A DNA stretch of 44,298 bases from positions 1 to 44,298 of the forward strand of contig JAAFHC010000060.1 in NCBI GenBank assembly GCA_010906935.1, written 5' to 3'. The DNA is from Gelidibacter sp. (GTDB lineage: Bacteria; Bacteroidota; Bacteroidia; Flavobacteriales; Flavobacteriaceae). The notes beneath the pieces were generated by a model, which saw only the letters and a program-made list of their open reading frames with translations, had not been told where the DNA came from and ran no database searches. The position numbers were made by a program, and so were the translations under genes. This document shows, in pieces, positions 22,550 through 26,324 of this stretch (position 1 is the first letter of the stretch; each line of letters starts with the position of its first letter).

Positions 22550-22987
22550 TTAGGCAGCTTTTTTCGACTTTCTGTAAAGGAACGAATTATACAATTTTCT
22601 TTTGGCAAAATTAGATCGCTGACCACTATTTACGAATTTGGTAAAAAGGTTTTGATTCACGCCAAAATATTCATAGGTGGTTCCGCAAGCAAACGTAATT
22701 TCCAAAAGCATACTTTTATGCTGGAAGTTTTCAATTTTTGATTCAGAAGTTAAACTAGCATATTCTTTTAGATTCGACTCTTTAGTTTCTGGAGCTATAC
22801 TCACTAAAAAATGGTAGCCATCGATAATTTTCGTACTTATGATTCCTGCTTCATGCTTTTTTTCTTCGTCCTGAAATTTATCTGGATGCCATTCTTTCAC
22901 CAATCCTCTGTAAGTTGTTTTCAGTTCTTTTAGATTAATTTCTCCTTCTATCTTAAATATTTTTTTGTACTCATTGATACGCTTCAT
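22550..22987 (-). CDS. J-domain and KTSC-domain protein
   Basis: A 145-residue cytoplasmic protein starting MKRINEYKKIF at 22987. Residues 1-60 form a DnaJ-like J domain with helices around the HPDK motif (LVKEWHPDKFQDEEKK). Residues 85-140 form a KTSC domain (TFACGTTYEYFGVNQNLFTKFVNSGQRSNFAKRKLYNSFLYRK). A J domain implies co-operation with Hsp70; the KTSC role is unknown. The frame could extend to 23062, but TATCTTTG at 23011-23018 is a -7 box that puts the transcript start close before 22987. Confidence 0.88.
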   Translation of the reverse strand: MKRINEYKKIFKIEGEINLKELKTTYRGLVKEWHPDKFQDEEKKHEAGIISTKIIDGYHFLVSIAPETKESNLKEYASLTSESKIENFQHKSMLLEITFACGTTYEYFGVNQNLFTKFVNSGQRSNFAKRKLYNSFLYRKSKKAA

Positions 22988-23010
22988 ATGTGCTGTTTTC
23001 AAATTTCGGG

Positions 23011-23018
23011 CAAAGATA
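23011..23018 (-). promoter_or_regulatory. -7 element of the J-domain gene
   Basis: TATCTTTG on the minus strand matches TAnnTTTG, 23 bp before the ATG at 22987. No TTG is found at -33. Confidence 0.45.
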
Positions 23019-23166
23019 TTCATATTATTTGAATTAATTCTTTCATTTTTAAATTTGAACACAACTAGTTAACTCATTCAAATATAGCTATTTATAAATA
23101 GGAAATCTCTGTAAAACATAGAATTCACAAGGATTTAGATATGTAAAATTATCTGAGAAGCTCCTA

Positions 23167-23342
23167 CAAAGCTCCGTTTTGAAAATCAACAAAAGAAAAC
23201 ATCACAGTCTAAAAAATAAAAGCAAGCTTTGTTTTATTCTGAAGGATTATCTTCGATGTTCCTAACAAAGCTCCGCTTTGAAAATCAACAAAAGAAAAAA
23301 CAAAAGAAAACATCGCAGTCTAAAAAATAAAAGCAAGCTTTG
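23167..23342 (+). repeat. Imperfect direct repeat downstream of tRNA-Arg
   Basis: Copy A at 23167-23231 (65 bp) and copy B at 23266-23342 (77 bp) share CAAAGCTCCG..TTTG, AAAATCAACAAAAGAAAA, CAGTCTAAAAAATAAAAGC and end in AAGCTTTG. Copy B carries a 12-bp internal duplication (ACAAAAGAAAAA). Copy B supplies half of the tRNA terminator. The region 22988-23385 holds no other gene. Confidence 0.8.
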
Positions 23343-23357
23343 ATTTTTAGCTTGCTT
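23323..23357 (-). terminator. Terminator of tRNA-Arg
   Basis: On the minus strand, stem AAGCAAGCT/AGCTTGCTT with a 9-nt loop is followed by TTATTTTTTA. It lies 28 bp behind the tRNA. Confidence 0.75.
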
Positions 23358-23385
23358 AGTTTTCAATTTTTTGTTGATTTATTCG

Positions 23386-23459
23386 TGACCCCGGTAGGAT
23401 TCAAACCTACAACCGCTGGAGCCGAAATCCAGTGCGCTATTCAGTTGCGCCACGAGGCC
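23386..23459 (-). tRNA. tRNA-Arg (TCG)
   Basis: A complete 74-nt cloverleaf: acceptor GGCCTCG/CGGGGTC (with G-T pairs), D arm, anticodon arm CTGGA-TTTCGGC-TCCAG with anticodon TCG, T arm GTAGG-TTTGAAT-CCTAC, discriminator A. CCA is not encoded. The stop codon of the upstream GIY-YIG gene falls in its D loop (nt 21-23), so the two are on one transcript. A partial second copy lies at 23736-23834. Confidence 0.96.
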
Positions 23460-23709
23460 TTTTATTTTGCGAAAGTATTAAAGATTTTATAAACTCTCTT
23501 CCTATTCCTGATTTTAAATATTTTTCACTTTCTCTTGCTTCAATCCTTGTATTATATTGTTTCTCAAAAATCACTCTCCAAGGAGCGTATGCTTTAGTTG
23601 AAATATTCTGATTTGAATTATGTTCCCTTAATCTTTTAGCAACATCAATTGTCATACCTGTATAAGTTCTCTTGTAATTATCACTAAAAAGAACATACAC
23701 ATTAAACAT
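23437..23709 (-). CDS. GIY-YIG nuclease domain protein
   Basis: A 90-residue single-domain GIY-YIG protein. The motif pair reads VYVLFSDNYKRTYTG (residues 4-18), followed by the helix with VAKRLREHN carrying the conserved Arg, then PWRVIFEKQY and RIEARESEKYLKSGIGREF with the putative metal-binding Glu. It is in the size class of small UvrC-like/UPF0213 proteins. Its last codons (KRPRGATE) and its TAG stop are encoded by the 5' end of tRNA-Arg. On the other side it is preceded by only 26 bp separating it from a partial tRNA-Arg copy. Being flanked by tRNA sequence suggests a homing-like element. Confidence 0.85.
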   Translation of the reverse strand: MFNVYVLFSDNYKRTYTGMTIDVAKRLREHNSNQNISTKAYAPWRVIFEKQYNTRIEARESEKYLKSGIGREFIKSLILSQNKRPRGATE

Positions 23710-23735
23710 TAGTTATTGCTTAAATCATTTTTTCA

Positions 23736-23834
23736 TCAAACCTACAACCGCTGGAGCCGAAACCTGCCTGCCGGCAATGCAGGTCCAGTGCGCTATTCAG
23801 CCTGACTGCCATCGGCAGTTTGAGCCACGAGGCC
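23736..23834 (-). pseudogene. Partial tRNA-Arg copy interrupted by two palindromes
   Basis: Matches the first 59 nt of the tRNA-Arg at 23386-23459 from its G1 through the T loop, then diverges. Two inserted segments interrupt it: 23801-23823 (23 nt replacing 4 nt of the D arm, containing ACTGCC-ATC-GGCAGT) and 23763-23783 (21 nt at the edge of the anticodon loop, containing CTGCCGGCA). It cannot form a tRNA. Confidence 0.9.
23737..23744 (-). promoter_or_regulatory. Candidate -7 element of the GIY-YIG gene inside the tRNA fragment
   Basis: TAGGTTTG, part of the T-arm sequence of the tRNA fragment, matches TAnnTTTG and lies 27 bp before the GIY-YIG ATG. The fragment ends just after it. The -33 region has no clear TTG at ordinary spacing. 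Confidence 0.35.
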
Positions 23835-23841
23835 TTTTGTT

Positions 23842-24291
23842 TTATCCCAATAATTGTTTTACTGCAGTGGAAATTGATTTTCCGTCTGCTTTTCCTGCCA
23901 GTTCTTTTGACGCAAGCGCCATCACATTTCCCATATCTTTCATGGAAGTGGCACCCACTGATTTTATAATTTCTGCAACCGCATTTTTCACATCCTCGTC
24001 ACTCATTTGAGCAGGCAAAAATTGTGAAATTACTCCCACTTGCGCCAATTCAGGTTCTGCCAAATCTTCTCTTCCTTGTTCTTTATAAATTGCGGCGCTG
24101 TCCTTTCGCTGTTTTACCAATTTTTGAATCAATTTTATTTCATCATCTTGGGTCAATTCCTCCGAAGCGGCACTTTTTGTTTGAATTAATAACAATTCAG
24201 ATTTAATGGCTCTTAACGATTCCAAAGCAACTTTGTCCTTAGTTTTCATCGCCTCTTTCATCTTATCCATTATCTTTTCCTGTAAACTCAT
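23842..24291 (-). CDS. yqeY: GatB/YqeY domain-containing protein
   Basis: A 149-residue cytoplasmic YqeY-family protein: N-terminal helical domain MSLQEKIMDKMKEAMKTKDKVALESLRAIKSELL, then the GatB-like tail (EDLAEPELAQVGVISQFLPAQMSDEDV...VGATSMKDMGNVMALASKELAGKADGKSISTAVKQLL). The tail resembles the tRNA-binding end of amidotransferase subunit B; the physiological role is not settled. It is complete, has its own -7 box and lies behind the ftsZ terminator. Confidence 0.95.
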   Translation of the reverse strand: MSLQEKIMDKMKEAMKTKDKVALESLRAIKSELLLIQTKSAASEELTQDDEIKLIQKLVKQRKDSAAIYKEQGREDLAEPELAQVGVISQFLPAQMSDEDVKNAVAEIIKSVGATSMKDMGNVMALASKELAGKADGKSISTAVKQLLG

Positions 24292-24311
24292 AATCGTTTA
24301 ATTTTATTGAG

Positions 24312-24319
24312 CAAAGATA
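24312..24319 (-). promoter_or_regulatory. -7 element of yqeY
   Basis: TATCTTTG on the minus strand, 20 bp before the yqeY ATG and directly after the T-run of the ftsZ terminator. Confidence 0.45.
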
Positions 24320-24368
24320 AAAAAAAAGAACTCGAAAATCTTCATTATTACAAGAAGATTTTCGAGTT
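24319..24368 (-). terminator. Terminator of the dcw cluster after ftsZ
   Basis: A perfect inverted repeat with 15-bp arms (AACTCGAAAATCTTC / GAAGATTTTCGAGTT) and a 10-nt loop, followed on the minus strand by CTTTTTTTTTT. Confidence 0.88.
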
Positions 24369-24413
24369 AAAAACCTAAAAAAAAAATCTAAGTTTTTGTC
24401 TTTGGGCTACATT

Positions 24414-26324
24414 TTAATCCACATTGTCATGCAGAAAAGAGTTGTTTGAACGAAATTGAATCGCGTCTGTGTCATCAATTTGCAAAGTTGTCCTGGATTG
24501 ATAAAAGTCGGAAGAATGATTAGATTGGTCCAATTCTATTCCCATTCTTTTATAAGCAGGTTCTTTATCCATTTCATCAATATTTTTGCTTAATTTATTG
24601 CTAAACTTATAATTAAAATTTTTCATTTTCTCTCTTCTGTCAGCAGCTCTTTGCTGCAATTCAGCTATGGTTAAATCTAACGGCGAAACCTCTTTGTAAT
24701 CAACCACTTCATACTCTTTTACATCTATTTCAGATTTTGAGCTCAAAGTAAAATTCATTTCATCTTCAATATTTGACTTCACCTCTTTAACAACCGGCTT
24801 GACAGCTTTTGTTAAATTATCTTCCAGCTCCGTATAATCTTCCAAAGTGAAATAAATATCCTCTTCCACCTTTTTTATAACGCTTACATGTTGATGACCG
24901 TTAACTTCAATGGCATTAATATTGGTTTTATGCTCTTCAACTTTAGGTTTATTTTTAAATTCTGAAAGTGGCAAATCGAACGTAAACGAAATTTGTTTTT
25001 CTTCTTCGACCTGAAGAATAGGCTCCTCTATTTGCGGAGTGAATGACGTAATTATAAAATCATTTTCTGTGTGGTGGGCAATTTCTTCATAAACCACTTC
25101 AATGTTTTTGATAAACTCCGTGGTCGAAATAATCTTAAAGTCTTCCTCATTTTCTTCCAATTCTTCGCCTAAATCATAAATTATTTTATCCTCAACTTGC
25201 GGGATATCAATAATTTTACTATTGGTTTGTTTGATTGGATAATCTCCAAATTTATTTTCAAAAAAATCAAACGTAGCCTCTTGTTCATCGTTAAGCGTAT
25301 GAATTATTTTTTTGGCTTCGGTATTTGAAATTTCATGTTGCTGGTCTTTATTAAAACCTGTGGCTACAATAGTTACTGAAATGGCATTTCCCAAAGATTC
25401 ATCTTCACCAACGCCCATAATAATATTAACGTTAGACTTGGCTTCTGCCTGAATATAGTCATTGATTTCGCCTATTTCATCAATCGTAATTTCTTCAGAT
25501 CCTGAAACAATTAACAACAGCACATTTTTTGCGCCGGTAATTTTATTGTCGTTTAACAAGGGTGAATCCAATGCTTTTGAAATTGCAATTTCAGACCTGT
25601 TTTCACCAGAGGCACTTGCAGAGCCCATAATGGCAGTTCCACTATTTGAAAGTACTGTTTTAGCATCTCTTAAATCGATGTTTTGCGTGTAGTGGTGCGT
25701 AATTACTTCGGCAATTCCTCGAGCTGCTGTGGATAACACTTCATCAGCTTTTGAAAAACCAGCTTTAAAACCAAGATTTCCATACACTTCCCTAAGTTTG
25801 TTGTTGTTAATTACCACTAAGGAATCTACATATCCACGTAATTTTTCAATCCCTTTATAAGCCTGGTCGTTACGCATTTTACCTTCAAAACCGAAAGGAA
25901 TAGTCACAATACCAATGGTCAGCAAATCCAATTCCCTTGAAACTCTGGCAATTACCGGCGCAGCACCGGTTCCTGTTCCGCCGCCCATTCCAACCGTGAT
26001 AAACACCATTTTTGAATTGGACGCTAACATTTGTTTAATTTCCTGAATACTTTCCATGGCGGCCTGTTCTCCAACTTCCGGGTTTGCACCTGCGCCCAAT
26101 CCTTCGGTTAATGAAACGCCCAATTGAATTTTAGTGGGTATTGGACTGTTTTGCAATGCCTGTGCGTCGGTATTGCAAATTACGAAATCAACGCCGTCAA
26201 TTCCCTGTAAATACATATGGTTTACGGCGTTGCTGCCTCCGCCGCCAACTCCAATAACTTTTATAACGTTGGACTGATTTTTTGGTAAATCAAATGAAAT
26301 GTTGCTAAAGTCTGAACTGCTCAT
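24414..26324 (-). CDS. ftsZ: Cell division GTPase FtsZ
   Basis: Tubulin-like protein that forms the division ring. The 636-residue protein has the conserved GTPase domain (IKVIGVGGGGSNAVNHM near residue 20; tubulin signature GMGGGTGTGAAPVIA near residue 113; NDQAYKGIEKLRGYVDSLVV) and the C-terminal domain up to about residue 325. It is followed by a C-terminal extension of about 300 acidic and variable residues ending in EPAYKRMGIELD...NNSFLHDNVD. The long tail is usual for flavobacteria, while most bacteria have around 390 residues. It is the last gene of the dcw cluster, with a strong terminator behind it. Confidence 0.97.
   Translation of the reverse strand: MSSSDFSNISFDLPKNQSNVIKVIGVGGGGSNAVNHMYLQGIDGVDFVICNTDAQALQNSPIPTKIQLGVSLTEGLGAGANPEVGEQAAMESIQEIKQMLASNSKMVFITVGMGGGTGTGAAPVIARVSRELDLLTIGIVTIPFGFEGKMRNDQAYKGIEKLRGYVDSLVVINNNKLREVYGNLGFKAGFSKADEVLSTAARGIAEVITHHYTQNIDLRDAKTVLSNSGTAIMGSASASGENRSEIAISKALDSPLLNDNKITGAKNVLLLIVSGSEEITIDEIGEINDYIQAEAKSNVNIIMGVGEDESLGNAISVTIVATGFNKDQQHEISNTEAKKIIHTLNDEQEATFDFFENKFGDYPIKQTNSKIIDIPQVEDKIIYDLGEELEENEEDFKIISTTEFIKNIEVVYEEIAHHTENDFIITSFTPQIEEPILQVEEEKQISFTFDLPLSEFKNKPKVEEHKTNINAIEVNGHQHVSVIKKVEEDIYFTLEDYTELEDNLTKAVKPVVKEVKSNIEDEMNFTLSSKSEIDVKEYEVVDYKEVSPLDLTIAELQQRAADRREKMKNFNYKFSNKLSKNIDEMDKEPAYKRMGIELDQSNHSSDFYQSRTTLQIDDTDAIQFRSNNSFLHDNVD

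Follow-up and report, generated by a model that had tools for sequence, protein, structure and literature searches.

A GIY-YIG nuclease gene between an intact tRNA-Arg and its palindrome-bearing partial copy in Gelidibacter: a probable tRNA-resident selfish element of a large family

How does a small nuclease gene come to stand between an intact tRNA gene and a broken copy of the same tRNA, and does it move? The question is raised by a locus of Gelidibacter sp. (Flavobacteriaceae) in a stretch of 44,298 nucleotides (contig JAAFHC010000060.1 of assembly GCA_010906935.1, hereafter the window), part of a draft genome of 3.3 Mb in 296 contigs. On the minus strand, yqeY is followed by a partial tRNA-Arg, a spacer of 26 bp, a GIY-YIG gene and an intact tRNA-Arg(TCG) (Table 1). 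This order, including the spacer before the nuclease ATG, had been described in an original prediction made from the sequence alone, and it is borne out by the coordinates, by the match to PF01541 and by the 58 identical positions out of 59 in the partial copy.

The nuclease gene had also been thought to take its stop codon from the intact tRNA, and its TAG does coincide with tRNA positions 21–23. The overlap of the protein tail with the tRNA stands as well, but with seven residues (RPRGATE) and not eight (KRPRGATE) read from or into it, because the first tRNA nucleotide falls within the codon for the seventh residue from the end. The partial copy was rightly called interrupted; it had been missed that the breaks are two palindromic insertions of 19 and 21 nt. 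The proposal that TAGGTTTG in the partial tRNA serves as the promoter of the nuclease gene found no support: TAGGTTTG belongs to the T-arm of the tRNA, the partial copy of the nearest relative found (genome G023) has lost it, and in most loci with a downstream tRNA the partial copy stops short of the T-arm. The earlier reading was thus incomplete, as it overlooked both the palindromes and the membership of the gene in a very large, often tandem-arrayed family.

Table 1. Features of the yqeY–tRNA-Arg locus in the window.
Feature	Position	Strand	Evidence
yqeY, host gene upstream of the original tRNA-Arg site	23842..24291	-	Pfam PF09424, E 7.8e-44
Pseudo-tRNA-Arg, positions 1–59 of the intact tRNA	23736..23834	-	58/59 identical, two insertions set aside
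Palindromic insertion 1, 19 nt, after tRNA position 15 (D loop)	23801..23819	-	
Palindromic insertion 2, 21 nt, after tRNA position 32 (start of anticodon loop)	23763..23783	-	
Spacer, 26 bp, before the nuclease ATG	23710..23735	-	
Single-domain GIY-YIG nuclease gene, 90 aa	23437..23709	-	Pfam PF01541, 48.8 bits vs cut-off 22.6
Intact tRNA-Arg(TCG)	23385..23459	-	Rfam 58.5 bits

Comparison with empty loci of the genus shows that the pseudo-tRNA-Arg occupies the place held there by the tRNA. According to a similarity search, the intact gene is the sole full-length copy with the TCG anticodon in the draft genome; one other full-length match is 87% identical and carries ACG. The direct repeats at the locus (27 nt exact, 17 nt exact and 24 nt at 92% identity), together with the recurrence of the layout in other genomes, exclude chance as the source of the arrangement of tRNA-Arg and partial copy. 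A group I intron does not fit, since an Rfam scan of positions 22800–24600 (E up to 1) found no intron family and a complete tRNA lies beside the half. None of the other six GIY-YIG loci of this genome has a tRNA within about 3.2 kb.

Further repeats were noted in the surroundings. Directly downstream of the tRNA-Arg, at 23166–23346 of the window, there are pairs of 48-nt and 34-nt repeats (96–97% identical), with similar copies downstream of the same tRNA in loci L049 and L053, and an ORF of 170 aa at 22550–23062 matches the KTSC, DnaJ (below cut-off) and dUTPase_2 families. Elsewhere in the same genome, a GIY-YIG gene away from tRNA genes (L002, 1182–1919) is flanked by direct repeats of 58–60 nt and by shorter inverted repeats.

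We compared 30 yqeY–tRNA-Arg loci out of 34 genomes of the genus with a yqeY match. The site is empty in 26 of them, with tRNA-Arg within about 26 nt after yqeY, in agreement with the idea that a small GIY-YIG unit sits at this locus. The remaining four are the window itself, G023, which is occupied, G034, where the hairpin-bearing tRNA half is kept and the nuclease is absent (a scar), and G032, where another spacer, about 130 nt long, stands instead. In G023 the arrangement and the locus are the same as in the window, the nuclease is 60% identical, and the insertions differ in sequence and lie at the same two tRNA positions; G023 and G034, which belong to different subclades, carry nearly the same insertions. 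The three occupied or scarred genomes do not form one group on the locus tree, and 3 changes, by gain or by loss, are needed. Alleles with and without the insertion at one site, as homing demands, are found (two occupied, one scar, 26 empty, one other spacer; n = 30), and the GIY-YIG unit may have moved. The intact tRNA is identical in the two occupied and in seven empty loci, which counts against the element reading, where the nuclease would have to spare its own locus, and means that self-protection cannot reside in the tRNA body. Downstream of this tRNA-Arg in G023, beyond the unit, lies a gene of the phage integrase family (PF13102, PF00589; L038, 2450–3268); an integrative element may therefore use the site as well.

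Within the genus, relatives of the protein (E 1e-8 or better) are present in 8 of 38 genomes, the window's own included. Those at other sites lie with a hairpin-bearing partial copy at tRNA-Leu (L039), tRNA-Met (L040, L041) and tRNA-Pro (L043, L046); L042 has tRNA debris and no intact tRNA, L045 has tRNA-Met debris plus other tRNAs on the opposite strand, and at L044 no tRNA was found.

For a wider census, a profile of eight relatives (A1) was searched against 299 genomes of the same family, of which 153 gave matches at E 1e-12 or better. The census itself comprises the best 118 locus clusters (E 5.1e-23 or better), weaker matches down to 1e-12 being left out. An intact tRNA on the same strand lies within 150 bp in 101 of the 118 loci, downstream of the nuclease gene in 85 and upstream in 16. 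These tRNAs span nine amino acids and eleven anticodons: Arg(TCG) 25, Leu(CAA) 21, Met(CAT) 17, Pro(TGG) 10, Ala(GGC) 9, Arg(ACG) 7, Pro(GGG) 7, Asp 2 and one each of Ser, Val and His. L080, the one locus at Ser, may belong to the adjacent tRNA-Pro instead, since its nuclease is placed in the Pro clade. It is thus common for a GIY-YIG gene to end at or within a tRNA gene: of the 85 loci with a downstream tRNA, 51 have the nuclease stop codon within it, at position 10 (30 loci), 23 (19) or 19 (2).

The 17 census loci without a same-strand tRNA within 150 bp were counted against the element reading. Nine of them, read by eye, have a more distant intact tRNA, halves of a tRNA or tRNA debris with hairpins; seven are at contig ends, and in one (L108) a tRNA is present and the nuclease frame has a stop. 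At three loci (L188, L194, L166) the sequence before the nuclease gene contains no more of a tRNA than its 3' half, as would be seen if the integration of an island had cut the element off from its intact tRNA, and upstream of the nuclease gene at L162 there are tandem short repeats of tRNA-Pro 3' debris in which a hairpin replaces the T-arm.

The association extends beyond the family. A phylum-wide search found matches at E 1e-15 or better in 163 of 392 genomes, and among the 27 new best loci, to which the tRNA check was confined, 24 have a same-strand tRNA within 150 bp. A second query alignment (A2), made of nine members of the census or of the genus family that lie beside tRNA-Leu, gave a Leu set of 80 loci from named genomes, among 300 confirmed relatives found by protein sequence alone and partly overlapping the census. 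A same-strand tRNA lies within 150 bp in 73 of the 80, and 71 of these tRNAs are tRNA-Leu (CAA 65, TAA 5, GAG 1), the other two being Ser(GGA). The records of two Leu-set loci, L322 and L375, are metagenome bins labelled Rhodobacteraceae and Neomarinimicrobiota, i.e., outside Bacteroidota.

As a control, a Pfam-family search of 60 genomes of the same bacterial family gave 29 new best loci, which we split at 80 bits on the profile. Below 80 bits, 0 of 25 GIY-YIG genes have a tRNA within 150 bp (a single one has it at 156 bp), unlike the present elements. Only two of the four loci at or above 80 bits are within 150 bp of a tRNA, which was counted against the element reading; the other two are census loci, L178 at a contig end and L151 with tRNA debris.

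On the other side of the nuclease gene, 90 of the 101 loci repeat 12 nt or more of the same tRNA in colinear order, and 81 repeat 20 nt or more; the mean recurring length is 27.1 nt, compared with 1.87 nt for tRNAs of other amino acids. The 11 loci without a clear partial copy of the same tRNA were counted against the element reading. Insertions of at least 17 nt interrupt the partial copy in 74 of the 101 loci (96 insertions) and are absent in 27, which likewise counted against it. Half of them (50) follow tRNA positions 22–24, 24 follow positions 8–12, six follow position 32 and 16 lie elsewhere. A stem of at least 6 pairs is present in 65 of the 96 insertions and missing in 31, again a point against the element reading; the mean stem is 6.41 pairs, compared with 3.83 after shuffling. 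In the Leu set, insertions were found in 67 of the 80 loci, 50 at positions 23–24, 21 at 8–10 and 12 at 60–67, the last in a mirrored form. The structure line of tRNA-Arg places these insertion points at the edges of the D stem and the anticodon loop. Parts of the cloverleaf survive in the pseudo-tRNA, and at tRNA-Pro hairpins stand in for whole arms.

The protein has the features of a GIY-YIG nuclease. Residues Y5, Y16, G18, R26, H30, E62 and K66, which we take to be the GIY-YIG catalytic residues, are invariant in an alignment (A3) of 41 of 52 rows, from which 11 were left out, one of them with a stop codon; with these residues invariant and a Pfam score well above the cut-off (Table 1), the protein belongs to the GIY-YIG superfamily. 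By profile, its nearest solved relatives are of the UPF0213/SLX1 kind (1zg2, E 4e-12; 1ywl, 1.3e-10; SLX1 7cq2, 6.8e-7), whereas I-TevI lies further away (1mk0, E 0.0012). Carriage by a phage or plasmid found no support: one family member, L101, has no match in phage or plasmid records at E 1e-6, and matches to phage family models are weak, the best being E 8.3e-5 (L101) and 0.0098 (window protein).

Nuclease clades and tRNA types go together. In a nuclease tree built from 86 columns for 113 of the 118 loci, with many unresolved forks and with loci lacking a tRNA treated as a class of their own, the tRNA label needs 31 changes as against a shuffled mean of 77.1, with 0 of 200 shuffles as low, although related rows alone account for some of this clustering; all 21 Leu(CAA) rows form one group. 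The Leu clade is under purifying selection, with a median dN/dS of 0.22 over 388 non-independent pairs (75 of 80 loci). At least two near-complete nuclease domains stand in tandem in 25 of 117 loci, in units mostly of 298–471 bp and mostly 95–100% identical; another bacterial family contributes a five-unit array of 450 bp (L281). In 10 of the 117 loci the nuclease domain is split or shortened.

The palindrome type follows the nuclease sequence. Across the 59 loci with an insertion at the main site, the rank correlation is −0.37, with 0 of 500 permutations as low; restricting the permutations to loci of one tRNA type gave 3 of 500 as low, and among the 20 tRNA-Arg(TCG) loci alone it was 0 of 1000. 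At the same tRNA and the same site, some nucleases go with CCTGCCTGCCGGCAGGCAGG-like and others with CCCGCCCG...CGGGCGGG-like palindromes, and elements of one genome may carry different palindromes (e.g., G229, G281). In the Leu set, a 20-nt palindrome is exact in 42 of the 77 loci counted (out of 80), where the proteins are mostly 60–75% identical to the query.

Palindromes are also dispersed over genomes. With at most one mismatch, CCTGCCTGCCGGCAGGCAGG is present in 84 of the 299 genomes and its reversed control in none; it occurs in 68 of the 153 genomes with the nuclease as against 16 of the 146 without, and at five or more copies in 24 of the 153 as against 0 of the 146, both comparisons ignoring kinship and including the elements' own copies. 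In the window's own genome, the core palindrome of insertion 2 gives 29 strand matches (1 mismatch) at about 21 places, the reversed control giving 0. Many of the stray copies viewed lie outside tRNA genes, and some lie in T-arm-like tRNA debris. A general insertion into hairpin loops was not supported at 75 stray sites, where the mean enclosing stem is 4.84 as against 4.52 at random points; an enclosing stem of at least 7 was found at 11 of the 75 sites and at 5.6% of the control points.

Some stray copies have surroundings of their own. Most of the exact copies in the window's own genome (L008–L036) lie inside a recurring leader-like sequence, AGCGGTAACAG... palindrome ...GGTTCGCC, beside different genes, and three such loci (L010, L015, L018) have no Rfam match; a Flavo-1 RNA (L031, 1746–1891) lies about 250 nt from one palindrome copy of this genome. 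In G174 (L240–L248), many palindromes fall within a recurring GGGCG/TTACCAC sequence, perhaps another dispersed repeat.

What has to be explained, then, is the layout, the clades tied to tRNA types, the empty and occupied alleles, the arrays, the constraint on the protein and the matching palindromes. We read the gene as the nuclease of a tRNA-resident, target-restoring selfish element with homing-like spread and array growth, the palindromes being its cognate sites, and give this reading a probability of roughly two in three. One unit of about 300–470 bp would comprise a palindrome-bearing half of the target tRNA and a single-domain GIY-YIG nuclease gene, and would abut an intact copy of the same tRNA. 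Judging from the alignments, the commonest form is probably an insertion at 22|23, in which native tRNA 1–22 would be followed by the palindrome, the nuclease gene, a fresh tRNA 1–22 and native 23–75. The palindrome would be the element end that faces the native tRNA, and the opposite end would be the copy of tRNA 1–22 that rebuilds the gene; in the mirrored form, the 3' half would be restored instead. With the tRNA restored, little cost to the host is expected.

The nuclease may break DNA within or close to tRNA genes of the isotype it is tied to, or at the palindrome; by analogy with SegB, considered below, recombinational repair through the tRNA halves would then copy the unit into empty tRNA genes. 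The same repair could add tandem units; the arrays themselves are observed. The palindromes would be both the cognate DNA sites of the nuclease and the element ends, as their site, clade specificity and conservation suggest, with stray copies spread over the genome. A wider proposal, which we put forward as possible rather than probable, is that Bacteroidota harbour a tRNA-addressed, target-restoring element made of one single-domain GIY-YIG nuclease, a tRNA half that acts as address and repair arm, and a clade-specific palindrome as the cognate DNA end, whose REP-like palindromes are also seeded genome-wide, so that it would be a non-transposase counterpart of RAYTs.

The dispersed palindromes also lend themselves to a RAYT-like explanation, in which the GIY-YIG protein mainly binds and moves short palindromes and tRNA halves are merely stable homes for gene and palindromes. 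The match of palindrome type to nuclease sequence and the greater number of palindromes in genomes with the nuclease speak for it; the alignments show no evident target duplication at the insertions, some site-8 palindromes at tRNA-Leu are the reverse complement of site-23 ones, and SLX1, among the nearest solved relatives, is structure-specific. We nevertheless consider it unlikely, as it leaves unexplained the tight tie of the gene to one tRNA type per clade, stray palindromes have no general preference for hairpin loops, and an exact reverse-complement pair occurs in only 2 of 77 Leu loci.

An old local tandem duplication, after which one tRNA copy decayed with the GIY-YIG gene trapped between the two and inherited vertically, would account for the two flanking tRNA-derived sequences that are typical of the gene, for the same layout at the same locus in the window's genome (G000) and G023, and for a Leu clade that stays at tRNA-Leu across many genera. 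This explanation, against which the original prediction had weighed its mobile unit, is largely refuted and very improbable: the empty sites and the many GIY-YIG genes ending in or at tRNA genes speak against it, as do the spread of one family over the tRNAs of nine amino acids (101 of 118 loci), the patchy distribution, the near-identical arrays, the palindromes at recurrent sites and the absence of the pattern from lower-scoring GIY-YIG genes. Equally hard to credit is a service to the host, with nuclease and hairpin-bearing tRNA half acting for the cell (e.g., the pseudo-tRNA RNA as decoy or antitoxin to a tRNA-acting nuclease): it would suit the shared strand, the purifying selection and the cloverleaf parts kept in the pseudo-tRNA, such as the arms replaced by hairpins at tRNA-Pro, but not the patchy presence, the 10 of 117 loci with a split or shortened domain, or the palindrome stems, in which a role at the RNA level predicts an excess of G-U over A-C cells that was not found (25 vs 30).

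The reading of the unit as a target-restoring selfish element invites comparison with known systems. RAYTs (TnpA-REP) are tyrosine transposases linked to REP palindromes, and RAYT and palindrome types go together. The present elements resemble them in the short dispersed palindromes, the linked gene and the matching types of palindrome and protein. They differ in the linked protein, a GIY-YIG nuclease and no tyrosine transposase (the window protein matches nothing else in Pfam), and in the embedding of the gene in tRNA genes. Integrative elements with tRNA attachment sites insert into a tRNA gene that an element-borne part restores. This likeness, insertion into a tRNA with restoration, is accompanied by differences: the present unit holds a GIY-YIG nuclease, hairpins fill the leftover half, and in most loci (85 of 101) it is the 5' half that is restored; no site-specific recombinase was found within the unit, GIY-YIG being the sole ORF in the window unit and in seven viewed loci. 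Hairpin-forming mobile elements of mitochondria and palindromic elements of rickettsiae are likewise small palindromes inserted in genes, including RNA genes; for these we know of no linked nuclease clade or tRNA half.

The closest parallel is offered by SegB, a free-standing GIY-YIG homing endonuclease of T-even phages whose gene often lies beside tRNA genes (PMC13096335). SegB cuts within tRNA genes and is required for the tandem amplification of a segment of tRNA and nuclease, for which recombination of the tRNA 5' region with the 3' region of the gene is the likely route, and in the part of the source consulted no favoured tRNA isotype is reported (PMC13096335). By its description, SegB shares the tRNA linkage and the tandem copies with the present elements. 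These differ from the phage gene in their place on bacterial chromosomes and their length of about 80–90 residues, nearly filled by the GIY-YIG domain, and in the tRNA types specific to clades, the pseudo-tRNA half and the palindromes.

Among the matches listed in the open-access literature, the scope of our search, we found no description of such an element. To our knowledge, no described kind unites a tRNA half that restores the target, nuclease clades specific for an isotype and palindromes specific for a clade; if homing is proved, the element could be classed with the free-standing homing genes.

If our reading is true, a selfish nuclease gene can inhabit tRNA genes phylum-wide without destroying them. 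The element would be a chromosomal counterpart to phage SegB, would tie GIY-YIG nucleases to dispersed palindromes and would supply DNA-cutting proteins of about 80 residues that are naturally specific for one tRNA isotype. The GIY-YIG genes, the hairpin-filled tRNA debris and the tandem repeats that lie beside these tRNA genes would be explained as well.
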